NCBI GenBank assembly: GCA_001874305.1
Contig: MPCU01000003.1
Span: forward strand, 186,001 to 250,000
Direction of reading: 5' to 3'
DNA from: Bacteriovorax sp. MedPE-SWde
GTDB lineage: Bacteria; Bdellovibrionota; Bacteriovoracia; Bacteriovoracales; Bacteriovoracaceae
Length of the DNA: 64,000 bases
Shown: in pieces, positions 44,856 through 63,384 of the stretch
Layout of the letters: each line of letters starts with the position of its first letter
Position numbering within the stretch: the stretch's first letter is position 1
Notes under the pieces: model-generated
What the model saw: only the letters and a program-made list of their open reading frames with translations
Told to the model about the DNA's origin: nothing
The model's database searches: none
Made by a program: the position numbers and the translations under genes

Positions 44856-46430
44856 ATGTCTAATAAAAAAAGCTTTCTAGTTTCATCTTTAAAAATGGGT
44901 GTTGCGACATTATCTAGTCGTGTTCTTGGTTTTGGACGTGAAATTTTATTCGCAAATATCTTTGGAGCATCAGGTTTAACGGATGCATTTCATATAGCAT
45001 TTAGAATCCCTAATATGCTTAGGGATCTCTTCGCTGAAGGGGCGTTCTCTTCTGCCTTTGTCCCTATTTTTACTGATGTAAAAAGAAAGGGTGATGAAGA
45101 GGCAAGAAAACTTCTGTGGTCAATGTTTCTTGTTCTCATAAGTATCACCATTGTGATTAGTTTGTTGATAATATTTTTTGCTCCTTCACTTGTTGCACTT
45201 CTTACAGATGAGTTATTCACAAGTAATGTTGAAAGATTTGAAGTTACAGTACTTTTAACGAGACTTATGGCACCTTTTTTGGCCTTTGTTTCAATTGCAG
45301 CTCTCTTTATGGGAGTTTTAAATACTTATAAAATGTTCTTTGGTCCAGCGATGGCACCGGCGACATTTAATGTCATTATGATTTTAGCAATGATCTTTCT
45401 TCCATCGCCATTAAAGGAAGCGGGATATCATCCAATTCTCTCTTTAGGGATTGGTGTTTTCTTTGGTGGGTTCATACAAATGTGTGTTCAGCTGCCAATG
45501 CTGAAGTCGAAGAAACTATTAAAGTTTGATGGGATAAATACTAGGTCTCCTGCAGTTCGAGAAATTTTAAAGAGAATGAGTATAGGAACTATTGGAGTAG
45601 GTGCTACCCAAATCAATCTATTGGTAACAACATTTCTAGCAACAGGTACAGTTGTTGGAGCTGTCTCCTGGCTACAGTATGCTTTTAGACTTTTTCAATT
45701 CCCTGTTGGAATACTCGGGGTCTCAATTGGTAACTCTAATCTTGTACATTTTTCGGAGTCATGGAAGTCGGGTAAAAAAGATGAGGCAGTTGCTTGTTTG
45801 CAGACAAGTTATTTGACGAGCCTTTTTACACTAATGCCAGCTTTGGCATTGATATATGCTTTGGCCTATGACTGTGTTGTCATTTCATTCCAAAGAGGGG
45901 CATTTTCATCAGCTGATACAGCAATGGTTGTTATGACTCTAAAAGCGTATCTTGTTGGTCTTCCATTTTATGGATTATACAAAGTTTTCTCACCGAGTTT
46001 TTACACTCTGGATAAACCAAAAATCCCTGTGATTATTTCTGCCTGTGCAGTAGCTTTGAATATTATTTTCTGTGTATCTCTCATTGATCTTGTTGGTTTT
46101 AAGATTTTGGCATTTGGAACAAGCCTCTCAATGATATTTATAATCATTGTCCAGTCATTTGTGCTTTGCAGAATTCTTGGGATTGGAGCATCCTTCTTCT
46201 TTCCTCTGAGGTTCTTTAAAATCTTGGCGTCAGGTGCCATATGTTACATTGCAACTGACTGGGCGAGACTAACAATTTTTGATCCTACGTATAATTCAGT
46301 ATGGGAAACACTTCTCGCTTTTTCAGTATCTGCACTATTTGGAGCAATTATATATGTGTTGGCCACGTGCGCAATGGGGGATTACAAACTCGTTGCACAA
46401 TTTTTTGGACGATTCTTAAAAAGAAAGTAA
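44856..46430 (+). CDS. murJ: lipid II flippase MurJ
   Basis: A 524-residue, ~14-helix MOP-superfamily protein that moves the peptidoglycan precursor lipid II to the periplasmic face. The N-terminus has the MurJ signature LSRVLGFGREILFANIFGAS and RIPNMLRDLFAEGAFSSAFVP, including the conserved Arg residues of the central cavity. Start ATG at 44856. It stands alone after the MCP terminator. Together with SpoIID and the 8902 protein, it supplies part of the window's cell-wall gene set. Confidence 0.94.
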   Translation: MSNKKSFLVSSLKMGVATLSSRVLGFGREILFANIFGASGLTDAFHIAFRIPNMLRDLFAEGAFSSAFVPIFTDVKRKGDEEARKLLWSMFLVLISITIVISLLIIFFAPSLVALLTDELFTSNVERFEVTVLLTRLMAPFLAFVSIAALFMGVLNTYKMFFGPAMAPATFNVIMILAMIFLPSPLKEAGYHPILSLGIGVFFGGFIQMCVQLPMLKSKKLLKFDGINTRSPAVREILKRMSIGTIGVGATQINLLVTTFLATGTVVGAVSWLQYAFRLFQFPVGILGVSIGNSNLVHFSESWKSGKKDEAVACLQTSYLTSLFTLMPALALIYALAYDCVVISFQRGAFSSADTAMVVMTLKAYLVGLPFYGLYKVFSPSFYTLDKPKIPVIISACAVALNIIFCVSLIDLVGFKILAFGTSLSMIFIIIVQSFVLCRILGIGASFFFPLRFFKILASGAICYIATDWARLTIFDPTYNSVWETLLAFSVSALFGAIIYVLATCAMGDYKLVAQFFGRFLKRK

Positions 46431-46498
46431 GTCTTTTCTTGCTAGTCTGAGGCCAAATAGTTAGAATTTTAGGTGATTACTATTTTGGAGATCTAAAT

Positions 46499-46945
46499 AT
46501 GAGAACAAACTTTGAAACGCTAGAGACTCTAGCAAGCTATACAATCAATGGATTGAAAGAAAACAGTGTTATTGAATTCGAAACTGAGAATAGAGAGAAG
46601 CTGATTGAATCAATGGCCACTGAATATGGTGTAGCTCTTGCAACTGATGAAGACATCAGAGACCAAGCTATTGAAGAAGTTGAAGACAAGATGGGTGTTG
46701 ATAATCTTCCTGAAGATGTAACTGAATCTGAAATGTTTAACCATGCTAGAAAAGAGATTATTAAATCTTTTAGCGGAGAAAATATTGGTGGTCTTTATCT
46801 TGTAGAATCTCTTCATGAGATTTCTAATAGAATGACTAAGTTTCTATTAAACAGTGAACTAATTGATGATGTCTTTGGAAGTGATGAAGATATTCATTCT
46901 TTCCTTGTGAATACAATTAGAGGATTTAATCCAAAGAAAAACTAA
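46499..46945 (+). CDS. conserved small acidic protein, unknown function
   Basis: 148 residues, acidic and helical, no signal peptide or membrane segment. The pattern of Glu/Asp-rich helices with DRDQAIEEVEDKMG-like spacing faintly recalls DUF507, but I would not assign it. Its start has GGAG at 46486-46489 and it ends at a hairpin shared with the convergent gene. Co-transcription with murJ (68-nt gap) is possible. Confidence 0.5.
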   Translation: MRTNFETLETLASYTINGLKENSVIEFETENREKLIESMATEYGVALATDEDIRDQAIEEVEDKMGVDNLPEDVTESEMFNHARKEIIKSFSGENIGGLYLVESLHEISNRMTKFLLNSELIDDVFGSDEDIHSFLVNTIRGFNPKKN

Positions 46946-47541: not shown

Positions 47542-47719
47542 GGCGAGAATTTATCTTCCACTAAGCCTAAAGTAAATGAGCAATATCAGATAAAGCTTCA
47601 ACTTTACTAATTTAGTACTAGTAAAATCAGCTAGTTATCAAATGGTAACTTTTTTGTTCAAGTTTTCATGTGATCTTGTCGATAGGACAGTGAGTTATAA
47701 TGTAGGTTGGAGAACCAAA

Positions 47720-49549
47720 ATGAAAATGAAAAATACACTTAGAGGACTATTGTTAACATCTCTCGTTCTAAACGGAACGGCCAATGCTGATTGGACTGTC
47801 TGTGAAGAAATCGACTCTGCTGGTTACGAAAGTGAAGCTAGTATGTGTATGAAGAGATATGTAAACGAGCAGTATGGAAATGATGGTTTCTGTGTTGAGT
47901 GTCTTCCTGAGCTCCCAGAGACAAACCCTTGGGCCGAAGTTGCAAAAGTAGCAATTCCGTCATTAGCAATGTTTGGTTCTGCTTATTATGGAGCTAAGTT
48001 TCAATATAAATCTCAAAAGTCTTGGTCTGATGCATACGCTGGAGGAATTCAGTCATGTCACGGATCAATTGGTGATTACCAAGCATATAACCTTGAAAGA
48101 GGTGGAAACCCAATTTTACCAGATGAGCAAACAGGAATGTTAGCGCAGTGTAATGGTAATCCAATGGGAATGTACGCCGGAGGCCTTGGTCTTGTTGGTG
48201 GAATGTATGGTGGTGTCGGCGGTAATGGACTTATCCAAGGTGGATACACTGGTGGCTTCTTAGGAGGTATGGGTGGTCCAATGTATGGAGGCGGTATGTA
48301 TGGCGGTGGCGGTATGTACGGCGGAGGCATGTACCCTGGAATGGGTGGCGGCGGAATAAGCGGCGGAGTTAATATTGGAATGGGTGGAAATCCATGGGCC
48401 TCTCTGGCCGGTGGAGCACTTGCAGGACTTTTAACTGGTGGAGGAATCCACGGTGGAATAAATATTGGAATGGGTGGAAACCCTTACGGCTCTATGGGCA
48501 TGGGTCCTTACGGAATGTATGGAAACATGGGAATGGGTGGCAACATGGGAATGGGCTATCCAGGAATGGGTGGTAACTTTGGAATGGGCTACCCTGGAAT
48601 GGGCGTTAATATCGGAATGGGTGGATACCCAGGAATGGGCGGAAACTTCGGAATGGGATATCCAGGAATGGGTGGAAATTTTGGAATGGGATACCCAGGC
48701 ATGGGCGGTAACATCGGAATTGGTGGAAGTATCGGAATCGGTGGATACCCTGGAATGGGTGGAAATATCGGAATCGGCGGATACCCAGGAATGGGTGGTA
48801 ATATCGGTATTGGTGGATATCCTGGAATGGGTGGAAACATCGGAATTGGTGGAAGTATCGGAATCGGTGGATACCCTGGAATGGGTGGAAATATCGGAAT
48901 CGGCGGTTACCCAGGAATGGGCGGAAATATTGGAATTGGCGGTTACCCAGGAATGGGTGGAAATATTGGTATAGGTGGTAACATCGGAGTTGGTGGATCT
49001 ATCGGTGCTGGTGGATATCCTTTCCCTGGTGCAGGTGGTGGCGGAGCTTCTTGTATGTGTATCGCTGCTCCTTGTAATTGTGGAAATACATTCCCTGGTG
49101 GAAACGGACAGATTAATACGAACGGCCAATGGGGAATAAATGGAACAGGAACAATGGGACCAAATGGTGCCGGAGCAGGGTGGGGATTAAATACTTACCC
49201 ATATGGAAACGGTGGTTCAGCATGGAATCAAGGTGGAGGTTGGCAAGCGCAAGCGCAAGCACAGGCCTTTACTCAAGGTTTAAATAATGCTCAAGCACAA
49301 GCATCTGCTGGAAGACTTCAGGGGAATGCACAAGGTAACTATTATGCAAATCAGGCACTATATCAAAACGTACAAAATGCTCAGCGAGATCTCTATGGTC
49401 AACAGCAGGGAATGATGTATGGTGGTGGAATGAATGGTGGAGCGATGTATAACTCTGGTATGAATTACGGTGCTATGGGTGGATTAAGTGCTCAATTCAA
49501 CGTTGGACTTGGTGCTAATTCTGGTGCTGGTTATCAATGGGGTCAATAA
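47720..49549 (+). CDS. secreted glycine-rich tandem-repeat protein
   Basis: A 609-residue exported protein. Signal peptide (residues 1-23, cleavage near NANA-D); a Cys-containing head (~24-150, with CEEI, CMKR, CVECLPELP and CHGS); a Gly/Tyr/Met-rich region (~150-280); an array of GYPGMGGNIGIG-type units (~280-435); a Cys cluster SCMCIAAPCNCG; then a Gln/Ala-rich tail. The long ORF would start at 47642, but GGAG lies seven bases before the ATG at 47720, which opens the signal peptide. Composition resembles structural or adhesive fibres rather than an enzyme. Surface location and predatory relevance are inference. Confidence 0.7.
   Translation: MKMKNTLRGLLLTSLVLNGTANADWTVCEEIDSAGYESEASMCMKRYVNEQYGNDGFCVECLPELPETNPWAEVAKVAIPSLAMFGSAYYGAKFQYKSQKSWSDAYAGGIQSCHGSIGDYQAYNLERGGNPILPDEQTGMLAQCNGNPMGMYAGGLGLVGGMYGGVGGNGLIQGGYTGGFLGGMGGPMYGGGMYGGGGMYGGGMYPGMGGGGISGGVNIGMGGNPWASLAGGALAGLLTGGGIHGGINIGMGGNPYGSMGMGPYGMYGNMGMGGNMGMGYPGMGGNFGMGYPGMGVNIGMGGYPGMGGNFGMGYPGMGGNFGMGYPGMGGNIGIGGSIGIGGYPGMGGNIGIGGYPGMGGNIGIGGYPGMGGNIGIGGSIGIGGYPGMGGNIGIGGYPGMGGNIGIGGYPGMGGNIGIGGNIGVGGSIGAGGYPFPGAGGGGASCMCIAAPCNCGNTFPGGNGQINTNGQWGINGTGTMGPNGAGAGWGLNTYPYGNGGSAWNQGGGWQAQAQAQAFTQGLNNAQAQASAGRLQGNAQGNYYANQALYQNVQNAQRDLYGQQQGMMYGGGMNGGAMYNSGMNYGAMGGLSAQFNVGLGANSGAGYQWGQ
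48554..49035 (+). repeat. GYPGMG/NIGIG tandem repeat array with 126-bp higher-order period
   Basis: Eleven GYPGMG copies occur with spacers of 5-13 residues (NFGM, then NIGI, some extended by GGSIGI). Units starting at 48722 and 48848 are almost identical over ~65 bp and exactly 126 bp (42 residues) apart, a recent segmental duplication. The reading frame is kept throughout, and several stop-free frames on both strands arise only from this composition. Confidence 0.85.
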
Positions 49550-49622: not shown

Positions 49623-50033
49623 TTACTTATTATGAATAAGAACTTTGATATCTGTCTTAAAGATAACTTGGATCTTATTATTGTCAATTTGCTTATCAAC
49701 AACACCTGAACCAAAAGTTGGGTGGTCAATAAGTTCACCGATTTCAAATTTTGTTTTTGGAGAGTACTTAGTAAGGTCTCCATCTTGCTTGCTCATTCCA
49801 GCTTCCCAAGCATTTGTAATTTTATCTGCAGCAGAAACTCTCGGCTTACGAGTTGTTTTCTTTTTTGCCGCTGGTGCTTTCTTCGTTTTAAATGTATGTG
49901 TTGATTTACATGTTTTGCATTGAACTTTATGTGGAGTTAACTCATCCTTCATTGCAACGATTAAGTGAGCAAGCTCAAGTTTACATTTTGAGCAATTAGT
50001 CACTATTTCTTTTCCTACGCCAAGTTTAGACAT
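49623..50033 (-). CDS. zinc-ribbon protein with C-terminal beta-barrel-like domain
   Basis: 136 residues. An N-terminal zinc ribbon with Cys14/17 and Cys39/42 (CSKC...CKTC) is followed by a basic Lys/Ala/Pro-rich linker (~48-70) and a C-terminal domain (KFEIGELIDHPTFGSGVVDKQIDNNKIQVIFKTD, quoted by landmarks). That last part resembles small CarD/Tudor-like barrels that bind protein or nucleic acid. The basic linker suits nucleic-acid contact. Function is unknown, and the family is not one I can name. Confidence 0.6.
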   Translation of the reverse strand: MSKLGVGKEIVTNCSKCKLELAHLIVAMKDELTPHKVQCKTCKSTHTFKTKKAPAAKKKTTRKPRVSAADKITNAWEAGMSKQDGDLTKYSPKTKFEIGELIDHPTFGSGVVDKQIDNNKIQVIFKTDIKVLIHNK

Positions 50034-50080: not shown

Positions 50081-51985
50081 ATGACTTATAATGTAAAGAC
50101 CGAACGCACAGGGAATAAACAACAAAAGCTATGGGAAAAGGCCAAAACTCTACCTCAAAAGCCGGGTTGTTACCTTTTAAAAAGATCTCGAGCAGATAAT
50201 GAAGAAATTCTCTATGTTGGTAAGGCAAAAAACCTAAGAAATAGGGTGATTTCCTATTTTAATGGATCAAATAAGTCTGCTAAGACTGAGATCTTAGTTG
50301 GTCATGTAAATGAGTTTGATTTTATTATCACTGATAATGAAGCAGAAGCATTTGTCCTTGAAAACAATCTGATTAAAAAACACGCACCAAAGTACAATAT
50401 TAGACTTAAAGACGATAAGTCTTACCCATATGTACAAATTGATTTTACGGAACCATTTGCAAGACCTGTCTATACGAGACGACCTAAGAAAGGTCGCTCC
50501 AAGAAGCTTTATGGTCCATTTACAACAGGGAGTAATATCTCTCAAGTTCTAAGAGTTCTTATAAAATCATTTTCTCTTAGAGACTGTTCTTTGGCCGAAT
50601 TTAAAAGAAGAAAAAGACCGTGTCTCTTATATCAAATGAAGCAGTGTAGTGCTCCATGTGTAGAATATATTTCTCAAGAAGAATATAAAAAGGATCTCGA
50701 TTTTGTGGCATCCTTTTTTGAAGGTAAGACAAAGAAAGTTTTTAAAGAGCTAGAGTCTCGAATGATTAATGCTGCTGAAAAAGAAGAGTTCGAATATGCA
50801 GCGATGATCAGAGATAATATTCAACTTCTTAATGAGTTTACTCAACAGTCTTTTGCACAAAATGTTGAATTAGAGCAAGATAAGAGTCTTGATATTATGG
50901 CGTATCATATTGGAGAGTTTGAGCTTGATATTTCCGTATATATTATGAGGGGAGGAATCTTACTTGGTCATAAGAACTTTCATTTTCATAAAGGTGATTC
51001 GAGTGAGGAAAGCGAAGATATCTTTTTGAATTTTGTATATCAATATTACTCTCAATCAGTAGAGTCTCTGCCGGATAAAGTCGTTTTAAGTATTCAAGAT
51101 GAATCAATGCAATTGATAAATCATGCTTTTCAAAACTCAATTGATTCTAAAATTGTAGCTAGTAAACCGATTGGCATGACTAAGAAGTTATATGAGTTAA
51201 CTGAGGATCATGCCAAGGAACATCAGAGGTTTAGAAATAAGAATACGGAGTCACCTTGGGTAGGACTTAACAAACTAAAAGAATTGTTAAAGCTCAAGGA
51301 AGTTCCTAAACTACTCGAGTGCTATGATATAGCAGTTTGGCAGGGACAGTCCCCAACTGCGGCTCAAATTGTATTTGATGAGGGTAAGCCGGATAAGAAG
51401 TTCTATAGATACTATCATCTTGAAGAGAGACCAGAAGGGAATAATGATTTTGCAATGATGAAGGAAGTATTGGCCCGTAGATTAAAAAAGGGAAGACTGC
51501 CTGATGTTTTTATTGTTGATGGTGGTAAGGGACAAGTAAATTCATTTCTTGAAGTATTAAAAGATTTCAATTTATTGGATATTCCAGTTGTAGGAATTGC
51601 TAAAGAAAGAAGTGGAAAGGATCAGTCGTTTAAAGATAGTGAAGTTAAGAGATCTGAAGAAAGACTTGTTATACCAAAAAGACTAAATCCTTATATTCTT
51701 AGTAAATGTCCTTCTCTAATGAGGATAGTCGTTTCAATGAGAGATGAGGCCCATAGATTCTCTCGTAAACTACATCATAAGAAAGAGCACTCTCGAATTT
51801 TAGGTTCTTGGTTTTCAGATATTGAAGGTATTGGAAAAATTACTCTGGATAGAATAAGGCTAAACCTAGATGTATCAATGGATGAGCTTAATGAATTGAG
51901 CGTAGATGAGATTTGTTCAAAATTTGATATTAAAATAGAGATTGCTAAAAGAATAAAAGAAAAGCTGTCTAGAAAGACAGCTTAA
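50081..51985 (+). CDS. uvrC: UvrABC excinuclease subunit C
   Basis: The 634-residue nuclease that makes both cuts in nucleotide excision repair. GIY-YIG N-terminus (PGCYLLKRS, LYVGKAKNLRNRV), YGPFTTG, a UVR motif near residue 215 (FEYAAMIRDNIQLL), the RNase H-like C-terminal endonuclease (FIVDGGKGQVNSFLEVL), and a helix-hairpin-helix tail (IEGIGKITLDRI). All parts are present. The 3' end interlocks by 4 nt with the small Zn-protein gene opposite. Confidence 0.95.
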   Translation: MTYNVKTERTGNKQQKLWEKAKTLPQKPGCYLLKRSRADNEEILYVGKAKNLRNRVISYFNGSNKSAKTEILVGHVNEFDFIITDNEAEAFVLENNLIKKHAPKYNIRLKDDKSYPYVQIDFTEPFARPVYTRRPKKGRSKKLYGPFTTGSNISQVLRVLIKSFSLRDCSLAEFKRRKRPCLLYQMKQCSAPCVEYISQEEYKKDLDFVASFFEGKTKKVFKELESRMINAAEKEEFEYAAMIRDNIQLLNEFTQQSFAQNVELEQDKSLDIMAYHIGEFELDISVYIMRGGILLGHKNFHFHKGDSSEESEDIFLNFVYQYYSQSVESLPDKVVLSIQDESMQLINHAFQNSIDSKIVASKPIGMTKKLYELTEDHAKEHQRFRNKNTESPWVGLNKLKELLKLKEVPKLLECYDIAVWQGQSPTAAQIVFDEGKPDKKFYRYYHLEERPEGNNDFAMMKEVLARRLKKGRLPDVFIVDGGKGQVNSFLEVLKDFNLLDIPVVGIAKERSGKDQSFKDSEVKRSEERLVIPKRLNPYILSKCPSLMRIVVSMRDEAHRFSRKLHHKKEHSRILGSWFSDIEGIGKITLDRIRLNLDVSMDELNELSVDEICSKFDIKIEIAKRIKEKLSRKTA

Positions 51986-53325: not shown

Positions 53326-54495
53326 ATGACTCTAAAAGCACTTATTATTTCACTTTTTCTTAGTGGTAACACTCTCGCAAGAGTCGCACCGGTTAAGTCC
53401 CCATCTGATAACTATAAGGTAAAGGTTCGTATTGCCCACGGGCTTAAGAATGTCGAAGTGTCTGGAACAGATCTTACTCGCTACTTACACCCTGTTGATC
53501 AAAGCAAGACCTATGGTGGACGAAAGAAAGTAAAGTTTAATTGCCACTACTTCTCTAAAGATAATAAGAAGGTATCTAATCAAATCTTATTAGCGTCTCT
53601 AACGAGTGGAACAGGACTTGTTACATTTGATAAGAAGAAGTACCAGGGTGAGCTTCACGTTGTAACTTCTGGAAGAAATAAAAAAAGCTGTGACGTTGTA
53701 AACGAATTAGAAATGGATTCATATATTAGCTCTCTACTTGCGAAGGAAATGAATGCAAGCTGGCCAATAGAGGCCCTCAAAGCACAGGCCGTAGCTGCCA
53801 GAACATATGCTCTTCATAAGATTCAAAAGGCAAAGCTTCTCGATTCGAGTTTCTATGATCTTGAGAATTCCGAAAAACATCAGGTGAATGGAGACTTCTT
53901 TGATGTAACGAGAAGAACTTTAAAAGCAGCGAGGCTAACTTCTGGATTTGTTTTAAAGAATAAATTAGGAAAGCTTACTCCTGCATTCTTTCATGCAAGC
54001 TGTGGAGGACGTACTCTAAGACCAGATGAAGTTTGGAGTAATAAAGTTGTCGGCTATGAAAAGGTTGCTAATTGTAATTACTGTAAAAAGAAAGATAATT
54101 GGCAAAGTGTTATCAGTAGATCGAGACTAAAGAAGATTATATCTTGGGCAATGAGAAAGGGTTATATAACAAAGAAGCTTAATCTCGATAAGAAAATTAG
54201 AATTTATAAAGATAAGAGAAATAGAAAATTTTTAAATATTAAAGTAGGCTCAAGAAAGATAAAGCTGAAAAAAGCGTTCTTTAGACGTTACTTCGGGAGA
54301 GTTCAGTTTCCGTCAAATTATTTTTATCTTGCTGATGGTCTTGGGAAAGGTCCTGTTCACTTCGTTGGCAAGGGAAATGGTCACGGAGTTGGATTATGTC
54401 AGGTTGGAAGTAGAGGACTAGCTCTAAAGGGGTGGGACTATAAAAGAATATTGTCCCACTATTTCCCAGAGCTAAATATTAAAAAAATATATTAG
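53326..54495 (+). CDS. SpoIID-domain peptidoglycan lytic transglycosylase-like protein
   Basis: 389 residues with a signal peptide (cleavage near TLA-R). The SpoIID/LytB signature includes LLAKEMNASWPIEALKAQAVAARTYALHK with the catalytic Glu of the 'E-x-x-x-x-W-P' segment, then AFFHASCGGRT, and HGVGLCQVGSRGLALKGWDYKRILSHYFP at the end (quoted in part). SpoIID acts on denuded glycan strands in sporulators; in Gram-negatives these proteins are cell-wall remodelling enzymes. The first 130 residues hold Cys pairs. The stop interlocks with the convergent lipoprotein gene. Confidence 0.85.
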   Translation: MTLKALIISLFLSGNTLARVAPVKSPSDNYKVKVRIAHGLKNVEVSGTDLTRYLHPVDQSKTYGGRKKVKFNCHYFSKDNKKVSNQILLASLTSGTGLVTFDKKKYQGELHVVTSGRNKKSCDVVNELEMDSYISSLLAKEMNASWPIEALKAQAVAARTYALHKIQKAKLLDSSFYDLENSEKHQVNGDFFDVTRRTLKAARLTSGFVLKNKLGKLTPAFFHASCGGRTLRPDEVWSNKVVGYEKVANCNYCKKKDNWQSVISRSRLKKIISWAMRKGYITKKLNLDKKIRIYKDKRNRKFLNIKVGSRKIKLKKAFFRRYFGRVQFPSNYFYLADGLGKGPVHFVGKGNGHGVGLCQVGSRGLALKGWDYKRILSHYFPELNIKKIY

Positions 54496-55166
54496 TATTG
54501 ACCGTTACAAGTTGGCTTAAAGAATGTTGTCCAAGCTTCATAAGGCTGAAGTTGTCCAGACATACCATTAACATTAAATTGGTAACTTGCAGATACCATA
54601 TAAGTGTTTACACCAGCATCAACTACACCATGTGGACAAAAATTATCCTTGTCTAGTATTAAACAATTTGGCGCTTGAAAACCAGATAATGCTCGTTCAT
54701 TACCAATTAGAGGAAGATTAGTTCCATAATAATTTAGATACTGAGAACACATTGAAATAAAAACATTATGTCCAACAACCTGACTTCCGTTTAGAACTTC
54801 AGAAACAATCATAAAATCATTATAAGGACTAACCCCAATATACTTTTGACCAGCTGTTCCTGACATAACACCTTGTTGGAAGTTTCCACAAACTGCGGTA
54901 TTGCTACCTTGACCAGCTTGAGCATAATATTGTTGAAAGTTACTAAGTCTTTGTCCGTTTTGGCACCTTAGAGAGTTACTTAATTCTCCCGCAAGTGATT
55001 GTACAGCGCTAGGCAGTCCGCCCTGACCAGTTGTTTGTTGATTACTTCCACCGTAATTTGTAGAAGAATCATTACCGCTCGTATTGACCTTATTACCGTC
55101 ACCACCACAACTAATTAGTGTAACTGATGCTGCAATTAATAGTAACTTTGTTAACGGGTGTTTCAT
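54492..55166 (-). CDS. lipoprotein of unknown function
   Basis: 224 residues from the ATG at 55166, which has GGGG/AAAAG upstream; the longer ORF start lacks a site and would break the signal. Lipobox LISC (Cys20), then a Gly/Asn/Ser/Gln-rich linker, then a domain with six Cys and many aromatic residues (YNDFMIVSEVL, FISMCSQYLNYYG, DKDNFCPHGVVDAG). No family is recognised. Likely lipidated in the outer membrane, with a disulfide-rich external or periplasmic domain. Confidence 0.65.
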   Translation of the reverse strand: MKHPLTKLLLIAASVTLISCGGDGNKVNTSGNDSSTNYGGSNQQTTGQGGLPSAVQSLAGELSNSLRCQNGQRLSNFQQYYAQAGQGSNTAVCGNFQQGVMSGTAGQKYIGVSPYNDFMIVSEVLNGSQVVGHNVFISMCSQYLNYYGTNLPLIGNERALSGFQAPNCLILDKDNFCPHGVVDAGVNTYMVSASYQFNVNGMSGQLQPYEAWTTFFKPTCNGQY

Positions 55167-55290
55167 TCTTTTTTCCCCTGTGTAATTCATTCTCGTTTAT
55201 CTTTTCGGATAATTGATAAAATAACTTTAGCGAAAATAAAGTTTAATAATCCTACGGACTTAGCCGAAAAATAGAATGGATGGGGGAATA

Positions 55291-58923: not shown

Positions 58924-58993
58924 TTTTAATCTGAATATTAAATTACCAATGTAAGCAGGAAGCTTACAACATCGTATCCTAGGAGGGGTGAAG

Positions 58994-60016
58994 ATGGCAC
59001 AGGTACTTAGTCAAGATGAAGTCGATGCACTACTTAACGCAGTTAATGATGGTGACTCTGATGATTTCCTAGGTGGAGATGGCGGAGATTTCGATGATGA
59101 TGAGGGTGATGATAATATACAGCCCTATGATCTGACCAATCAAGACCGTGTTATTCGTGGGCGAATGCCTATTCTTGAAATCATCTATGAGAGATTTATT
59201 AGATCTTTCAGGGTTTCACTATCTAACTCACTTAGAAAAATTTCTACGATCTCTATGATCTCAACAGACCTTTTGAAGTTTGGTGAATTCGTAAACACAC
59301 TACCGATTCCTTCTTGTATGTGTATTATGCGTTTCAACGAACTAAGAGGTCCAGCTCTACTTGTTTTTGAATCAAAGCTTGCTTATGCAATCATCGATTC
59401 ATACTTTGGTGGAACAGATAGACCATTTACTAAAATTGAAGGTAAGGAATTTACGGCCATAGAGCTTTCTTTCATGAAGAAAGTAATGGATATGGCAATC
59501 TCTGACCTTGAAGAAGCTTGGGCGCCAGTTCATAGAATTGATGCTCAATATATTAGAACAGAGATTAACCCACAATTCGTAGGAGTTGTTCCTCCTTCAG
59601 ATGTAATTATCGCAACTACTTTAGAAGTCGAATTCGAATCTGCTTCTGGAACAATTATGATCGTTGTTCCTTACTCAACGATTGAGCCGATTAAGCAGAA
59701 ACTAAGTTCAAGTTATCAAACAGATAATGACATGGCCGACAGTATTTGGACTACGGCAATGAATGAGCATATCAAACAAGCTAACGCTACTGTGACAGTG
59801 AAACTTGGTGAGACAGAAATGACTGTTGGAGATCTTTTAACTTTAGAATCTGGAGATATTATTCCTTTGAATCAGGAAGCTTCAGGAGAGGTTAATGCTG
59901 AAATCCAAGGTGTTGATAAGATGAAGTGTCTTATTGGAACATACAAAGGTAACAGAGCAGTTCAAATTACACATGTAGATAGACTGCTTGAAGATTTTTC
60001 AGAAAGTAATGAATAG
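58994..60016 (+). CDS. fliM: flagellar motor switch protein FliM
   Basis: 340 residues. The N-terminal CheY-P-binding motif LSQDEVDALL, a CheC-like middle domain (RFIRSFRVSLSNSLRK, GGTDRPFTKIEGKEFTAIE), and the C-terminal SpoA domain (VTVKLGETEMTVGDLLTLESGDII) are all present. It forms the C-ring that sets rotation direction and links to the two-component chemotaxis system. ATG at 58994 follows AGGAGGGG. Confidence 0.96.
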   Translation: MAQVLSQDEVDALLNAVNDGDSDDFLGGDGGDFDDDEGDDNIQPYDLTNQDRVIRGRMPILEIIYERFIRSFRVSLSNSLRKISTISMISTDLLKFGEFVNTLPIPSCMCIMRFNELRGPALLVFESKLAYAIIDSYFGGTDRPFTKIEGKEFTAIELSFMKKVMDMAISDLEEAWAPVHRIDAQYIRTEINPQFVGVVPPSDVIIATTLEVEFESASGTIMIVVPYSTIEPIKQKLSSSYQTDNDMADSIWTTAMNEHIKQANATVTVKLGETEMTVGDLLTLESGDIIPLNQEASGEVNAEIQGVDKMKCLIGTYKGNRAVQITHVDRLLEDFSESNE

Positions 60017-60026
60017 GGAGATATAA

Positions 60027-60407
60027 ATGAGTGATTTAGAAAATAATGCAGATGGAATGGGTAGCTTAGAGTCTATAAACACAATGCAAGTTGAAAAACT
60101 TGCTGATGATGTTAAGGCCGGTGATGATGCCATTAATAAACTTAAAGTTCAAAACTTAGACTTTATTCTCGATATACCTCTTAAAGTAACAGTAGAGCTT
60201 GGAAGAACTGAAGTTCAAATTAAAGATCTACTACAACTAGGTCAAGGTTCTGTACTTGAACTAGACAAACTTGCTGGTGAGCCACTTGAAATTCTCGTAA
60301 ATGGGAAGCTTGTAGCAAAGGGAGAGGTTGTAGTTGTAAACGAGAAGTTTGGTATTCGTTTAACAGATATTATTTCACCAATCGAGAGAATTGAAACTCT
60401 AAAATAG
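60027..60407 (+). CDS. fliN: flagellar motor switch protein FliN
   Basis: 126 residues. The C-terminal SpoA domain ([43 protein letters not shown]) is the FliN signature; the acidic N-terminal stretch is extra. It completes the C-ring with FliM, 10 nt after fliM and 8 nt before fliO. Confidence 0.95.
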
Positions 60408-60415
60408 GATAAGAG

Positions 60416-61567
60416 ATGAAAGGGAATAGCTTGAAAACATTAATCTTAGCAACTCTAGTTGGAATTTCAACTTATGCAAATGTTAATATCACTAAACTTA
60501 ATTATAAGAATGATAAGAACTTTGGTGTTGTAACAGTAAAACTTAAAGGTGTTTTAAAAGATACGCCTGAGCTAACAATCAAGAATGATGTTATTCAAAT
60601 AGAGATTCCTAATTCAATCGTGTGGCCAAAAATTGAGAAACAAGTGTCTGTAAACAGATCATTCGATTCAAAGCTAATGGCGTACCAATATAATAAAAAC
60701 TTAGTAAGAGTTAGAGCAAAGCTACCGTACGATCTAAGTGGTAAGGAATCTAAGGTAAGCGTCATTTTAAACGACGACAATATTCAACTCTATTTTCCTA
60801 AAGAAAAAGCAGTTTCAAGAAAAATAGTAAAGTCACTTCTTAATGTGAAGAAAAAGAAGTCTACTGCTAAATCTTATGATGAAAGCTACTTAGAAAAACT
60901 ATTGAAAGACAAAGAGAAGACTAAGAAAGCTCCAATAAAAAAAATTGCTAAGGCTGAAAGCTTTCTCCATGAAGAAATGAATACTAAGAAGGTCGTTGTA
61001 GATTCATTAAATACTAAGATGTCATCGGTTAAGAAGAGTTCATTTGATTTCTCTAGTTATGTATTTAAATTCATCGGTTTCTTTGCACTACTTGTTGCTG
61101 GGATTTATTTCATGATGAACTTCTTTAGAAAAGGGATGCTTAAAAAAGGTGGTCTTGGTTTTCTATCAGGCTCAAAGATGGTTGAAGTTTTAGATACAAC
61201 TTATCTCGGACCAAAGAGAAGTATTCTTGTTGTTAGAGTGCAAAAGCAAATCTTTCTAATGTCACAATCTGAAAAAGGTATGGATTTCTTAACTGAGATT
61301 AAAGATACTGCTGGGTTTATGAAAGAAGGTGAAAAGCAGGTTGTTGGATCTAACTTTGATACAAACCTGGATACAGCATCAGAAAAAGATAAAGATTTTA
61401 AATTAAAAGATGTAGTTTCGGCATTTGATACACCAGATGTTGCTCCTGATGACATTGACCCTGTTTTACAAGCACTTGCGGGACAAACAGAAGCTCAAGA
61501 GCTGAATAAAGTAAGCTTAACAAAACAAATTAAAAATAAGATTAAAGACTTAAAACCACTTCAATAG
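60416..61567 (+). CDS. fliO: flagellar export protein FliO with an N-terminal exported AMIN-like domain
   Basis: 383 residues, much longer than the usual ~100-150. A signal peptide (TYA, ~22) and a beta-rich exported part (~22-140: VTVKLKGVLKDTPELTIK, IEIPNSIVWP, LVRVRAKLPY) recall AMIN domains that bind peptidoglycan. Then a Lys-rich linker, one membrane helix (~215-235), and a cytoplasmic FliO domain (KMVEVLDTTYLGPKRSILVVRVQKQIFLMS). Position between fliN and fliP fits FliO. The AMIN reading is by pattern, but the exported extension is clear. Confidence 0.8.
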   Translation: MKGNSLKTLILATLVGISTYANVNITKLNYKNDKNFGVVTVKLKGVLKDTPELTIKNDVIQIEIPNSIVWPKIEKQVSVNRSFDSKLMAYQYNKNLVRVRAKLPYDLSGKESKVSVILNDDNIQLYFPKEKAVSRKIVKSLLNVKKKKSTAKSYDESYLEKLLKDKEKTKKAPIKKIAKAESFLHEEMNTKKVVVDSLNTKMSSVKKSSFDFSSYVFKFIGFFALLVAGIYFMMNFFRKGMLKKGGLGFLSGSKMVEVLDTTYLGPKRSILVVRVQKQIFLMSQSEKGMDFLTEIKDTAGFMKEGEKQVVGSNFDTNLDTASEKDKDFKLKDVVSAFDTPDVAPDDIDPVLQALAGQTEAQELNKVSLTKQIKNKIKDLKPLQ

Positions 61568-61575
61568 GAAGTTAG

Positions 61576-62325
61576 ATGAATAAATTAGGAAGAGCATTAT
61601 TACTATTTATACTTGCTGGATTTGCAGGAAGCGCACTCGCTCAAAGTGCCACGAAGCTAGGTTTACCTGGTCTCTCTGTTAATTTTGGTCAAGGTGTCGA
61701 TCTTGTCGATACACTAGAGTTAACAGTTCTGTTTACTGTTTTAACTTTAGCTCCAGCTGTCCTAATTTTATGTACATGTTTTACACGTATCATTGTCGTA
61801 CTATCTTTTATGAGACAGGCCATTGGTACTCAGAGTATGCCGCCAAACCAGTTACTAGTTGGTTTCGCACTCTTCTTATCAGTGTTTGTAATGCAGCCAA
61901 CAGGTGAAGAAATCTACAATAATGCTGTAAGACCATATATGGATAGAAAAATTACAACAACTCTAGCACTCGATAGAATAGAGCTTTCATTAAGAGGGTT
62001 TATGAACAAACAAGTTCGTAAGGCCGATATTGGACTATTCTATGATGTAACTGGAAGAAAGGCCCCTACAAGTATTGATGATGTGCCTATTCACTTTCTT
62101 ATTCCTGCTTTTATAATTTCTGAACTTAAAACTGCATTCCAGATTGGGTTCTTACTTTATATACCATTTCTAATTCTGGATATGGTTGTTGCTTCAGTTC
62201 TTATGGCCATGGGGATGATGATGTTACCTCCAGTTGTAATTTCTCTTCCATTCAAACTGCTACTATTTGTATTAGTTGATGGATGGCAGTTAGTAACAGG
62301 ATCGTTACTAAGATCATTTAATTAG
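61576..62325 (+). CDS. fliP: flagellar export protein FliP
   Basis: 249 residues with a cleavable signal peptide (SALA-Q) and four membrane helices. FTRIIVVLSFMRQAIGTQSMPPNQLL and FQIGFLLYIPFLILDMVVASVLMAMGMMMLPP are family signatures. It is the core of the type III export gate. Eight nt after fliO. Confidence 0.97.
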   Translation: MNKLGRALLLFILAGFAGSALAQSATKLGLPGLSVNFGQGVDLVDTLELTVLFTVLTLAPAVLILCTCFTRIIVVLSFMRQAIGTQSMPPNQLLVGFALFLSVFVMQPTGEEIYNNAVRPYMDRKITTTLALDRIELSLRGFMNKQVRKADIGLFYDVTGRKAPTSIDDVPIHFLIPAFIISELKTAFQIGFLLYIPFLILDMVVASVLMAMGMMMLPPVVISLPFKLLLFVLVDGWQLVTGSLLRSFN

Positions 62326-62338
62326 ATAGGAGAGAGAA

Positions 62339-62608
62339 GTGGACTTTTTTTCAGATATAGCAAAGCAAGCAATTACAATAGGACTGATGATTTCAGCTCC
62401 AATGTTACTTGGCTCACTTGTTATGGGTATCTTAGTTTCGATCTTTCAGGCCGTTACTCAAATCAATGAACAAACACTTTCATTTATTCCAAAGATTCTA
62501 GTTATTATTGGTGCACTTGTACTTTGTGCACCTTGGATGAGTGATCAATTAACAACTTTTACAAGGGAATTAATTATTAGTATTCCTCAACTTGTTACAG
62601 GTAGATAA
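62339..62608 (+). CDS. fliQ: flagellar export protein FliQ
   Basis: 89 residues, two membrane helices, and the FliQ motif (SIFQAVTQINEQTLSFIPKI). Part of the FliPQR export gate. The start is GTG with TAGGAGAG upstream. The stop overlaps the fliR ATG by 1 nt (TAATG). Confidence 0.96.
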   Translation: MDFFSDIAKQAITIGLMISAPMLLGSLVMGILVSIFQAVTQINEQTLSFIPKILVIIGALVLCAPWMSDQLTTFTRELIISIPQLVTGR

Positions 62609-63384
62609 TGACAATACAGATAACTGACATTGTTCCAGTAATTGCATTCTTTCTTGTTTTTTCAAGACTGCTTGCTGTGAATTTTCAGTTACCTATTTAT
62701 GATAACCTTCCGATTCCAATGATTGTTAAAATTCTATCAACACTTGTAATGTCATACTGCTTCTTTCCTTATGTTCAAGGAGAAGTAATGAAAGATATTG
62801 CTTATGTAGGTAAGGAAAATTTTTGGGCGCTAACGGCCGTATATACAATAGTTGGCCTGGTTATAGGCTACCTTGTTAAATCAATCATGGGGATCTTTGT
62901 AGCGGGTGGTTCTATCATTACACAACAGGTTGGGTTTGCAGCAGTACAATACTTTGACCCGACATCAAATCAACAAATTGGTCCGTTCGAGAAGCTCATT
63001 CAGTGGACAGTACTTGTAATGGTTATATCTTCTGGAGCATTACTTCCAATGTTCAAGGGCGTGTTTCACTCTTTTGAATCAATACATATTTATCAAATGG
63101 GTGCTTTTGCTAAAGCCCACATCTTTTATATAGAAGCATTTAAGTCGATATTTCTTTCGGCGATTATGCTTGCAACACCTTTAATTTTTACAAATATGCT
63201 AATCATGACAATCCTAGGAATTATCGCAAGAACAGTTCCTCAGTTGAATGTAATTATGGTTAGTTTTGCAGTTAATATTGGACTTGGTTTGCTAGTTTTT
63301 GCAGCAACAAGTGACGAATTTTTTAGTGTCGCCTTCAAGATTTATACAGATAAGCTTGGGGAATGGTTTCAATTTGTTATCTAG
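62608..63384 (+). CDS. fliR: flagellar export protein FliR
   Basis: 258 residues, about six membrane helices, with GFAAVQYFDPTSNQQIGPFEKL and the conserved N-terminal FFLVFSRLLAVN. Completes the export gate with FliP and FliQ. Translation coupled to fliQ through TAATG. Eighteen nt before flhB. Confidence 0.95.
   Translation: MTIQITDIVPVIAFFLVFSRLLAVNFQLPIYDNLPIPMIVKILSTLVMSYCFFPYVQGEVMKDIAYVGKENFWALTAVYTIVGLVIGYLVKSIMGIFVAGGSIITQQVGFAAVQYFDPTSNQQIGPFEKLIQWTVLVMVISSGALLPMFKGVFHSFESIHIYQMGAFAKAHIFYIEAFKSIFLSAIMLATPLIFTNMLIMTILGIIARTVPQLNVIMVSFAVNIGLGLLVFAATSDEFFSVAFKIYTDKLGEWFQFVI

Follow-up and report, generated by a model that had tools for sequence, protein, structure and literature searches.

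We believe that the gene at 47720-49549 (+) of the window, the whole 64,000-nucleotide stretch of Bacteriovorax sp. MedPE-SWde DNA that was analyzed, encodes an exported structural protein (a coat, fibre, or adhesin) that would be made in the attack phase and would self-associate through a glycine-rich arm. We give this reading somewhat better than an even chance. The protein family itself, its export signal, its invariant cysteines, its fixed locus, and its restriction to one class of bacteria are well supported. We infer a surface location, self-association of the arm, and a function in contacting prey or protecting the cell. The original prediction, made from the letters of this stretch, had proposed that the protein might be an adhesive, fibre, or surface-coat component.

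The gene product is a 609-residue protein with a predicted Sec signal peptide. The open reading frame called mechanically begins at 47642, and we preferred the ATG at 47720 because a Shine-Dalgarno sequence and the signal peptide go with that start (Table 1). Signal peptides, called by eye from the N-termini, were conserved among homologues. The persistence in homologues of both the signal peptide and the six head cysteines strongly supports export by Sec, as proposed originally, and the coordinates and the length of about 609 residues were correct. The original prediction had overlooked the near absence of charge, the second cysteine box, the amphipathic C-terminal strand, and the promoter.

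Table 1. Features of the glycine-rich gene and its locus (positions in the window).
Feature	Position	Strand	Detail
MurJ and DUF507-like genes	44856..46945	+	upstream markers of the conserved slot
Divergent neighbour, class-conserved protein anchored by one transmembrane segment	46984..47541	-	no Pfam family
Sigma28/FliA-type promoter, TCAAG-N16-TCGATA	47658..47684	+	TCAAGTTT-N12-GTCGATAG
Shine-Dalgarno GGAGA	47709..47713	+	genus-conserved TATAATGTAG(T)TGGAGA immediately 5' of the start
Sec signal peptide, residues 1-23	47720..47788	+	MKMKNTLRGLLLTSLVLNGTANA followed by DW, cleavage between ANA and DW; equivalent peptides in relatives
Six-cysteine helical head, residues 24-150	47789..48169	+	C28, C43, C58, C61, C113, C144
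Neck, residues 151-187	48170..48280	+	conserved YAG..GG...GG(Y)..GG(Y/F)(S/T)xGF(L/M)GGMxGP
Variable glycine-rich arm	48281..49051	+	46% Gly, zero D/E/K/R
Array of eleven GYPGMG(GNIGIG) units	48554..48979	+	units at residues 279-413
Second cysteine box CMCIAAPCNC, residues 445-454	49052..49081	+	C445, C447, C452, C454
Gln/Ala-rich helical tail, residues ~510-562	49247..49405	+	QGN...YANQALYQN..NAQRDLY
C-terminal amphipathic strand	49478..49546	+	GGLSAQFNVGLGANSGAGYQWGQ; conserved ending of type GN(L/M)GxxFSIGG...F
Convergent neighbour, zinc ribbon	49623..50033	-	weak similarity to UvrD C-terminal region
UvrC	50081..51985	+	downstream marker of the conserved slot

The two ends of the protein are conserved around the arm. 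The cysteine cluster noted earlier proved to be a six-cysteine head, invariant at all six positions in 32 of 32 aligned heads, and there was a second cluster after the arm. The box that holds this second cluster was identical in three relatives from the genus and in locus L070, and other relatives had two-cysteine forms (MCITQPC, GCGILC); by sequence comparison it appears to be a partly conserved element. Trp/Gly boxes lie in the linker between this box and the tail. The Gln/Ala-rich tail was present as predicted and was discernible in most complete C-termini of relatives. In an AlphaFold2 model of the full-length protein (mean pLDDT 44), the arm was unstructured and the tail formed a helix of low confidence at mature residues 487-539. 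The head modeled alone had helices at mature residues 14-28, 47-103, and 111-122 (mean pLDDT 63).

The C-terminal strand could also be read as a BAM-type signal, in which case several subunits would jointly make a small oligomeric barrel or channel and the head and arm would be periplasmic. The final residue was F, W, or Y in 27 of the 44 non-redundant relatives, with alternating hydrophobic residues before it, and in sequence such an aromatic end resembles an outer-membrane targeting signal. However, there was just one clear amphipathic strand per chain, no barrel was predicted, and the protein in the window ends ...YQWGQ, that is, with no aromatic residue at the very end. We consider an outer-membrane protein or pore improbable.

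The protein belongs to what, judged from its sequence, is a real family without a name and is more than low complexity. There was no match to the protein above the curated cut-off in Pfam, NCBIfam, or PHROGs, no match in a PDB sequence search, no match in a plasmid collection, and no match at E ≤ 0.001 when the low-confidence head model was compared to the PDB with Foldseek. These empty sequence and fold searches agree with the earlier statement that the protein fits no known enzyme family. When the head was used as the query against relatives, 21 of 58 genomes had a homologue. With a profile of 22 sequences, the family was found in 98 of the 129 genomes of the class, and with a broader profile in 104 of 129, including 65 of the 73 of high quality. 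Outside the class, neither profile found the family in any of 240 genomes from the same phylum. When 84,980 species were scanned with a motif, 34 relatives emerged, all from records labeled Bacteriovorax, Halobacteriovorax, or Bacteriovoracaceae, or as metagenome-assembled genomes that are unnamed or named more broadly. The homologue search and distribution that had been suggested as a check thus gave a class-restricted family whose members retain the signal peptide, and the guess of a possible predator was right as to lineage, the named relatives being Halobacteriovorax and Bacteriovorax. Most members were drawn from metagenome-assembled genomes of unproven predatory habit, so a role specific to predation is only one possibility.

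Most apparent absences of the gene were not true absences. We found uvrC in 18 of the 20 genomes without a match to the first profile. In at least five such genomes (L079-L083) the contig ends within the tail of the gene, and in L085-L089 a diverged homologue occupies the slot. We therefore rejected true absence for most of these genomes and conclude that nearly all members of the class have the gene. In one genome (G006, locus L090) the zinc-ribbon and membrane protein genes adjoin and the glycine-rich gene is missing, which is likely a real loss. The repeats of the gene break assemblies, so contigs often end there, which could account for the family having escaped notice.

The gene was in one fixed slot in 53 of the 55 loci that we fetched, in the order MurJ, DUF507-like, membrane protein (-), glycine-rich gene (+), zinc ribbon (-), and UvrC. 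The order was judged as far as the contigs extend and the markers are recognizable, and some loci represent one genome taken from two collections. The convergent zinc-ribbon gene and the divergent gene for a membrane-anchored protein were where the original prediction had placed them. The two exceptions were short forms elsewhere in the genome: a second copy of 239 amino acids (L036, 8104-8796) and a head paralogue outside the conserved locus (L057), both with a head and no glycine arm, and neither with a good FliA site. The DNA-repair and envelope genes on either side are probably no more than stable neighbours. The zinc-ribbon gene adjoins uvrC in most loci of the class, and its product is possibly a factor linked to repair or to RNA polymerase. 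The divergent membrane protein has a pattern conserved throughout the class, WW...ERTDTRYDW...EGTAT...SSVLNGLVEGPYFEE. Downstream from the locus, at 58988-63384 (+), are apparent flagellar switch and export genes (judged by eye).

The gene is preceded by a FliA-type promoter that is conserved throughout the class, with much the same spacing to the start. The alignment of upstream regions from the genus gave T(C/T)AAGTTT-N12-GTCGATA, and a mechanical scan found TAAAGTTT-N12-(C)CGATAA, with slight variations, in most members. No other open reading frame in the 64-kb window had a motif of the form TCAAG-N16-TCGATA within 200 nucleotides upstream. We scored promoters against TTAAG-N16-CCGATA from Bdellovibrio bacteriovorus, a related predator, in which it is the consensus of 92 of 140 attack-phase promoters and is ascribed to FliA (PMC3627812). 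The site in the window scored 9 of 11. Of 45 non-redundant members, 31 scored at least 9 of 11, compared with 42 of the 489 remaining genes in these loci (Fisher p ~1e-19, a value inflated by relatedness of the sequences). As positive controls, an exact pattern occurred at four sites in 3.76 Mb of the same genome, one of them before a flagellin gene and one before a FliD-like gene (both named by eye). A FliA-type sigma factor was present in all 129 genomes of the class, above the curated cut-off in 120 of them. Experiments in Bdellovibrio show that TAD and flagellin promoters are activated by FliA, which is apparently essential (PMC5430801). The promoter sequence supports control of the glycine-rich gene by FliA, and because it matches the attack-phase consensus of Bdellovibrio, it independently supports a link to the hunting phase.

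The same promoter type is common to flagellin and FliD, and the protein could instead be associated with the flagellum or motility (for example, as part of a flagellar sheath or as a secreted lubricant) rather than being a prey-contact coat. About 21 kb separate the locus from the fliA gene (G000:C9:255044-255718), and beyond 58 kb the window has apparent flagellar export genes. However, DNA-repair and envelope genes intervene before these flagellar genes, and FliA in Bdellovibrio drives many non-flagellar genes as well (PMC3627812). We assign a low probability to a flagellar function.

The arm is variable in sequence and, in most members, constant in character. Its length, repeat unit, and sequence vary among relatives (GYPGMGGNIGIG in the window copy, GYPGAGIGIG in L025, and GGYMQ in L069), and despite the differing units most arms are still Gly-rich and low in charge. 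In the window protein, D, E, K, and R are absent from residues 151-531, with three such residues in all of 151-609. The arms of the most diverged members (L085-L089) are charged and contain RG, so the exclusion of charge is not universal. Tandem Repeats Finder detected 36- and 126-base arrays at 48512-48998 (score up to 536). The predicted count of eleven GYPGMG units was exact, and ten of the eleven are encoded by different DNA, which indicates selection on the peptide and not fresh copying. That the protein is a periplasmic redox or structural protein with an active CxxC head, and that the arm is neutral low-complexity filler from replication slippage, would fit the strong conservation of the head, the variability of the arm, and the armless paralogue L036, but is quite improbable given the low-charge, Gly-rich arms of most members, the ten different codings of eleven identical peptide units, and the helix and strand conserved beyond the arm.

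In the attack-phase structural protein that we favor, FliA (sigma28) would turn the gene on alongside flagellin and FliD in the free-swimming phase, Sec would export the protein, and disulphides would lock the small helical head outside the cytoplasm. Self-association of the charge-free arm would build a coat or fibre on the outer surface, with the second cysteine box possibly cross-linking the associated arms, and the helical tail and amphipathic strand may aid docking, either onto the outer membrane or with each other. Of these steps, we infer both attack-phase expression and disulphide pairing.

Silks, plant cell-wall glycine-rich proteins, and eggshell proteins have a signal peptide and tandem, low-charge, Gly-rich repeats with variable units. 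The protein is like them in all of these respects; unlike them, it is bacterial and has a six-cysteine head and a conserved helical and strand-forming C-terminus, and the likeness does not amount to homology. It is also like collagen-like and polyglycine-II proteins in that the 12-mer of the window copy has Gly at every third residue (the Gly autocorrelation of this copy is 0.54 at a lag of 3 and 0.71 at a lag of 6), but the 10-mer and other units of relatives lose the triplet register. We rejected a collagen-like GXY or polyglycine-II reading because the 10-mer units in L025 break this register. The form and spacing of the promoter are like those of the FliA attack-phase regulon of Bdellovibrio, which includes cell-surface proteins and many uncharacterized genes (PMC3627812; PMC5430801). 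The likeness is in promoter sequence, and the profile searches found no homologue of the glycine-rich gene outside its own class. Very few conserved gene clusters are common to Bacteriovoracaceae and Bdellovibrionaceae (PMC11656739).

The gene is a concrete candidate for a single-gene knock-out: nearly every genome of the class has it, the other genomes of the phylum that were searched lack it, its locus is a single core one, and its promoter is of the hunting-phase type. A stronger claim, that the protein is a class-defining, FliA-switched surface polymer, forming a coat or a tip on attack-phase cells and required for attaching to prey or entering it, is tentative and on the whole unlikely; if it is true, the fast-evolving arm would be a variable contact material. 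A disulphide-headed, charge-free, Gly-rich surface polymer of Bacteriovoracia-type predators, possible and rather doubtful, would be previously undescribed. In the literature, we found no surface or adhesion candidate of such a type for the class and no transcriptome or localization study, and glycine goes unmentioned in a comparative-genomics paper about lineage-specific families.

A putative lipoprotein gene in the window, at 54492-55190 (-), is, from its sequence relatives, a second nearby candidate for an attack-phase envelope gene. Among the twelve control genes that scored at least 10 against the promoter consensus, five encode lipoproteins like this one, and the similar lipoprotein genes in L025, L026, L028, L030, and L043 have FliA-type promoters that scored 10 of 11.
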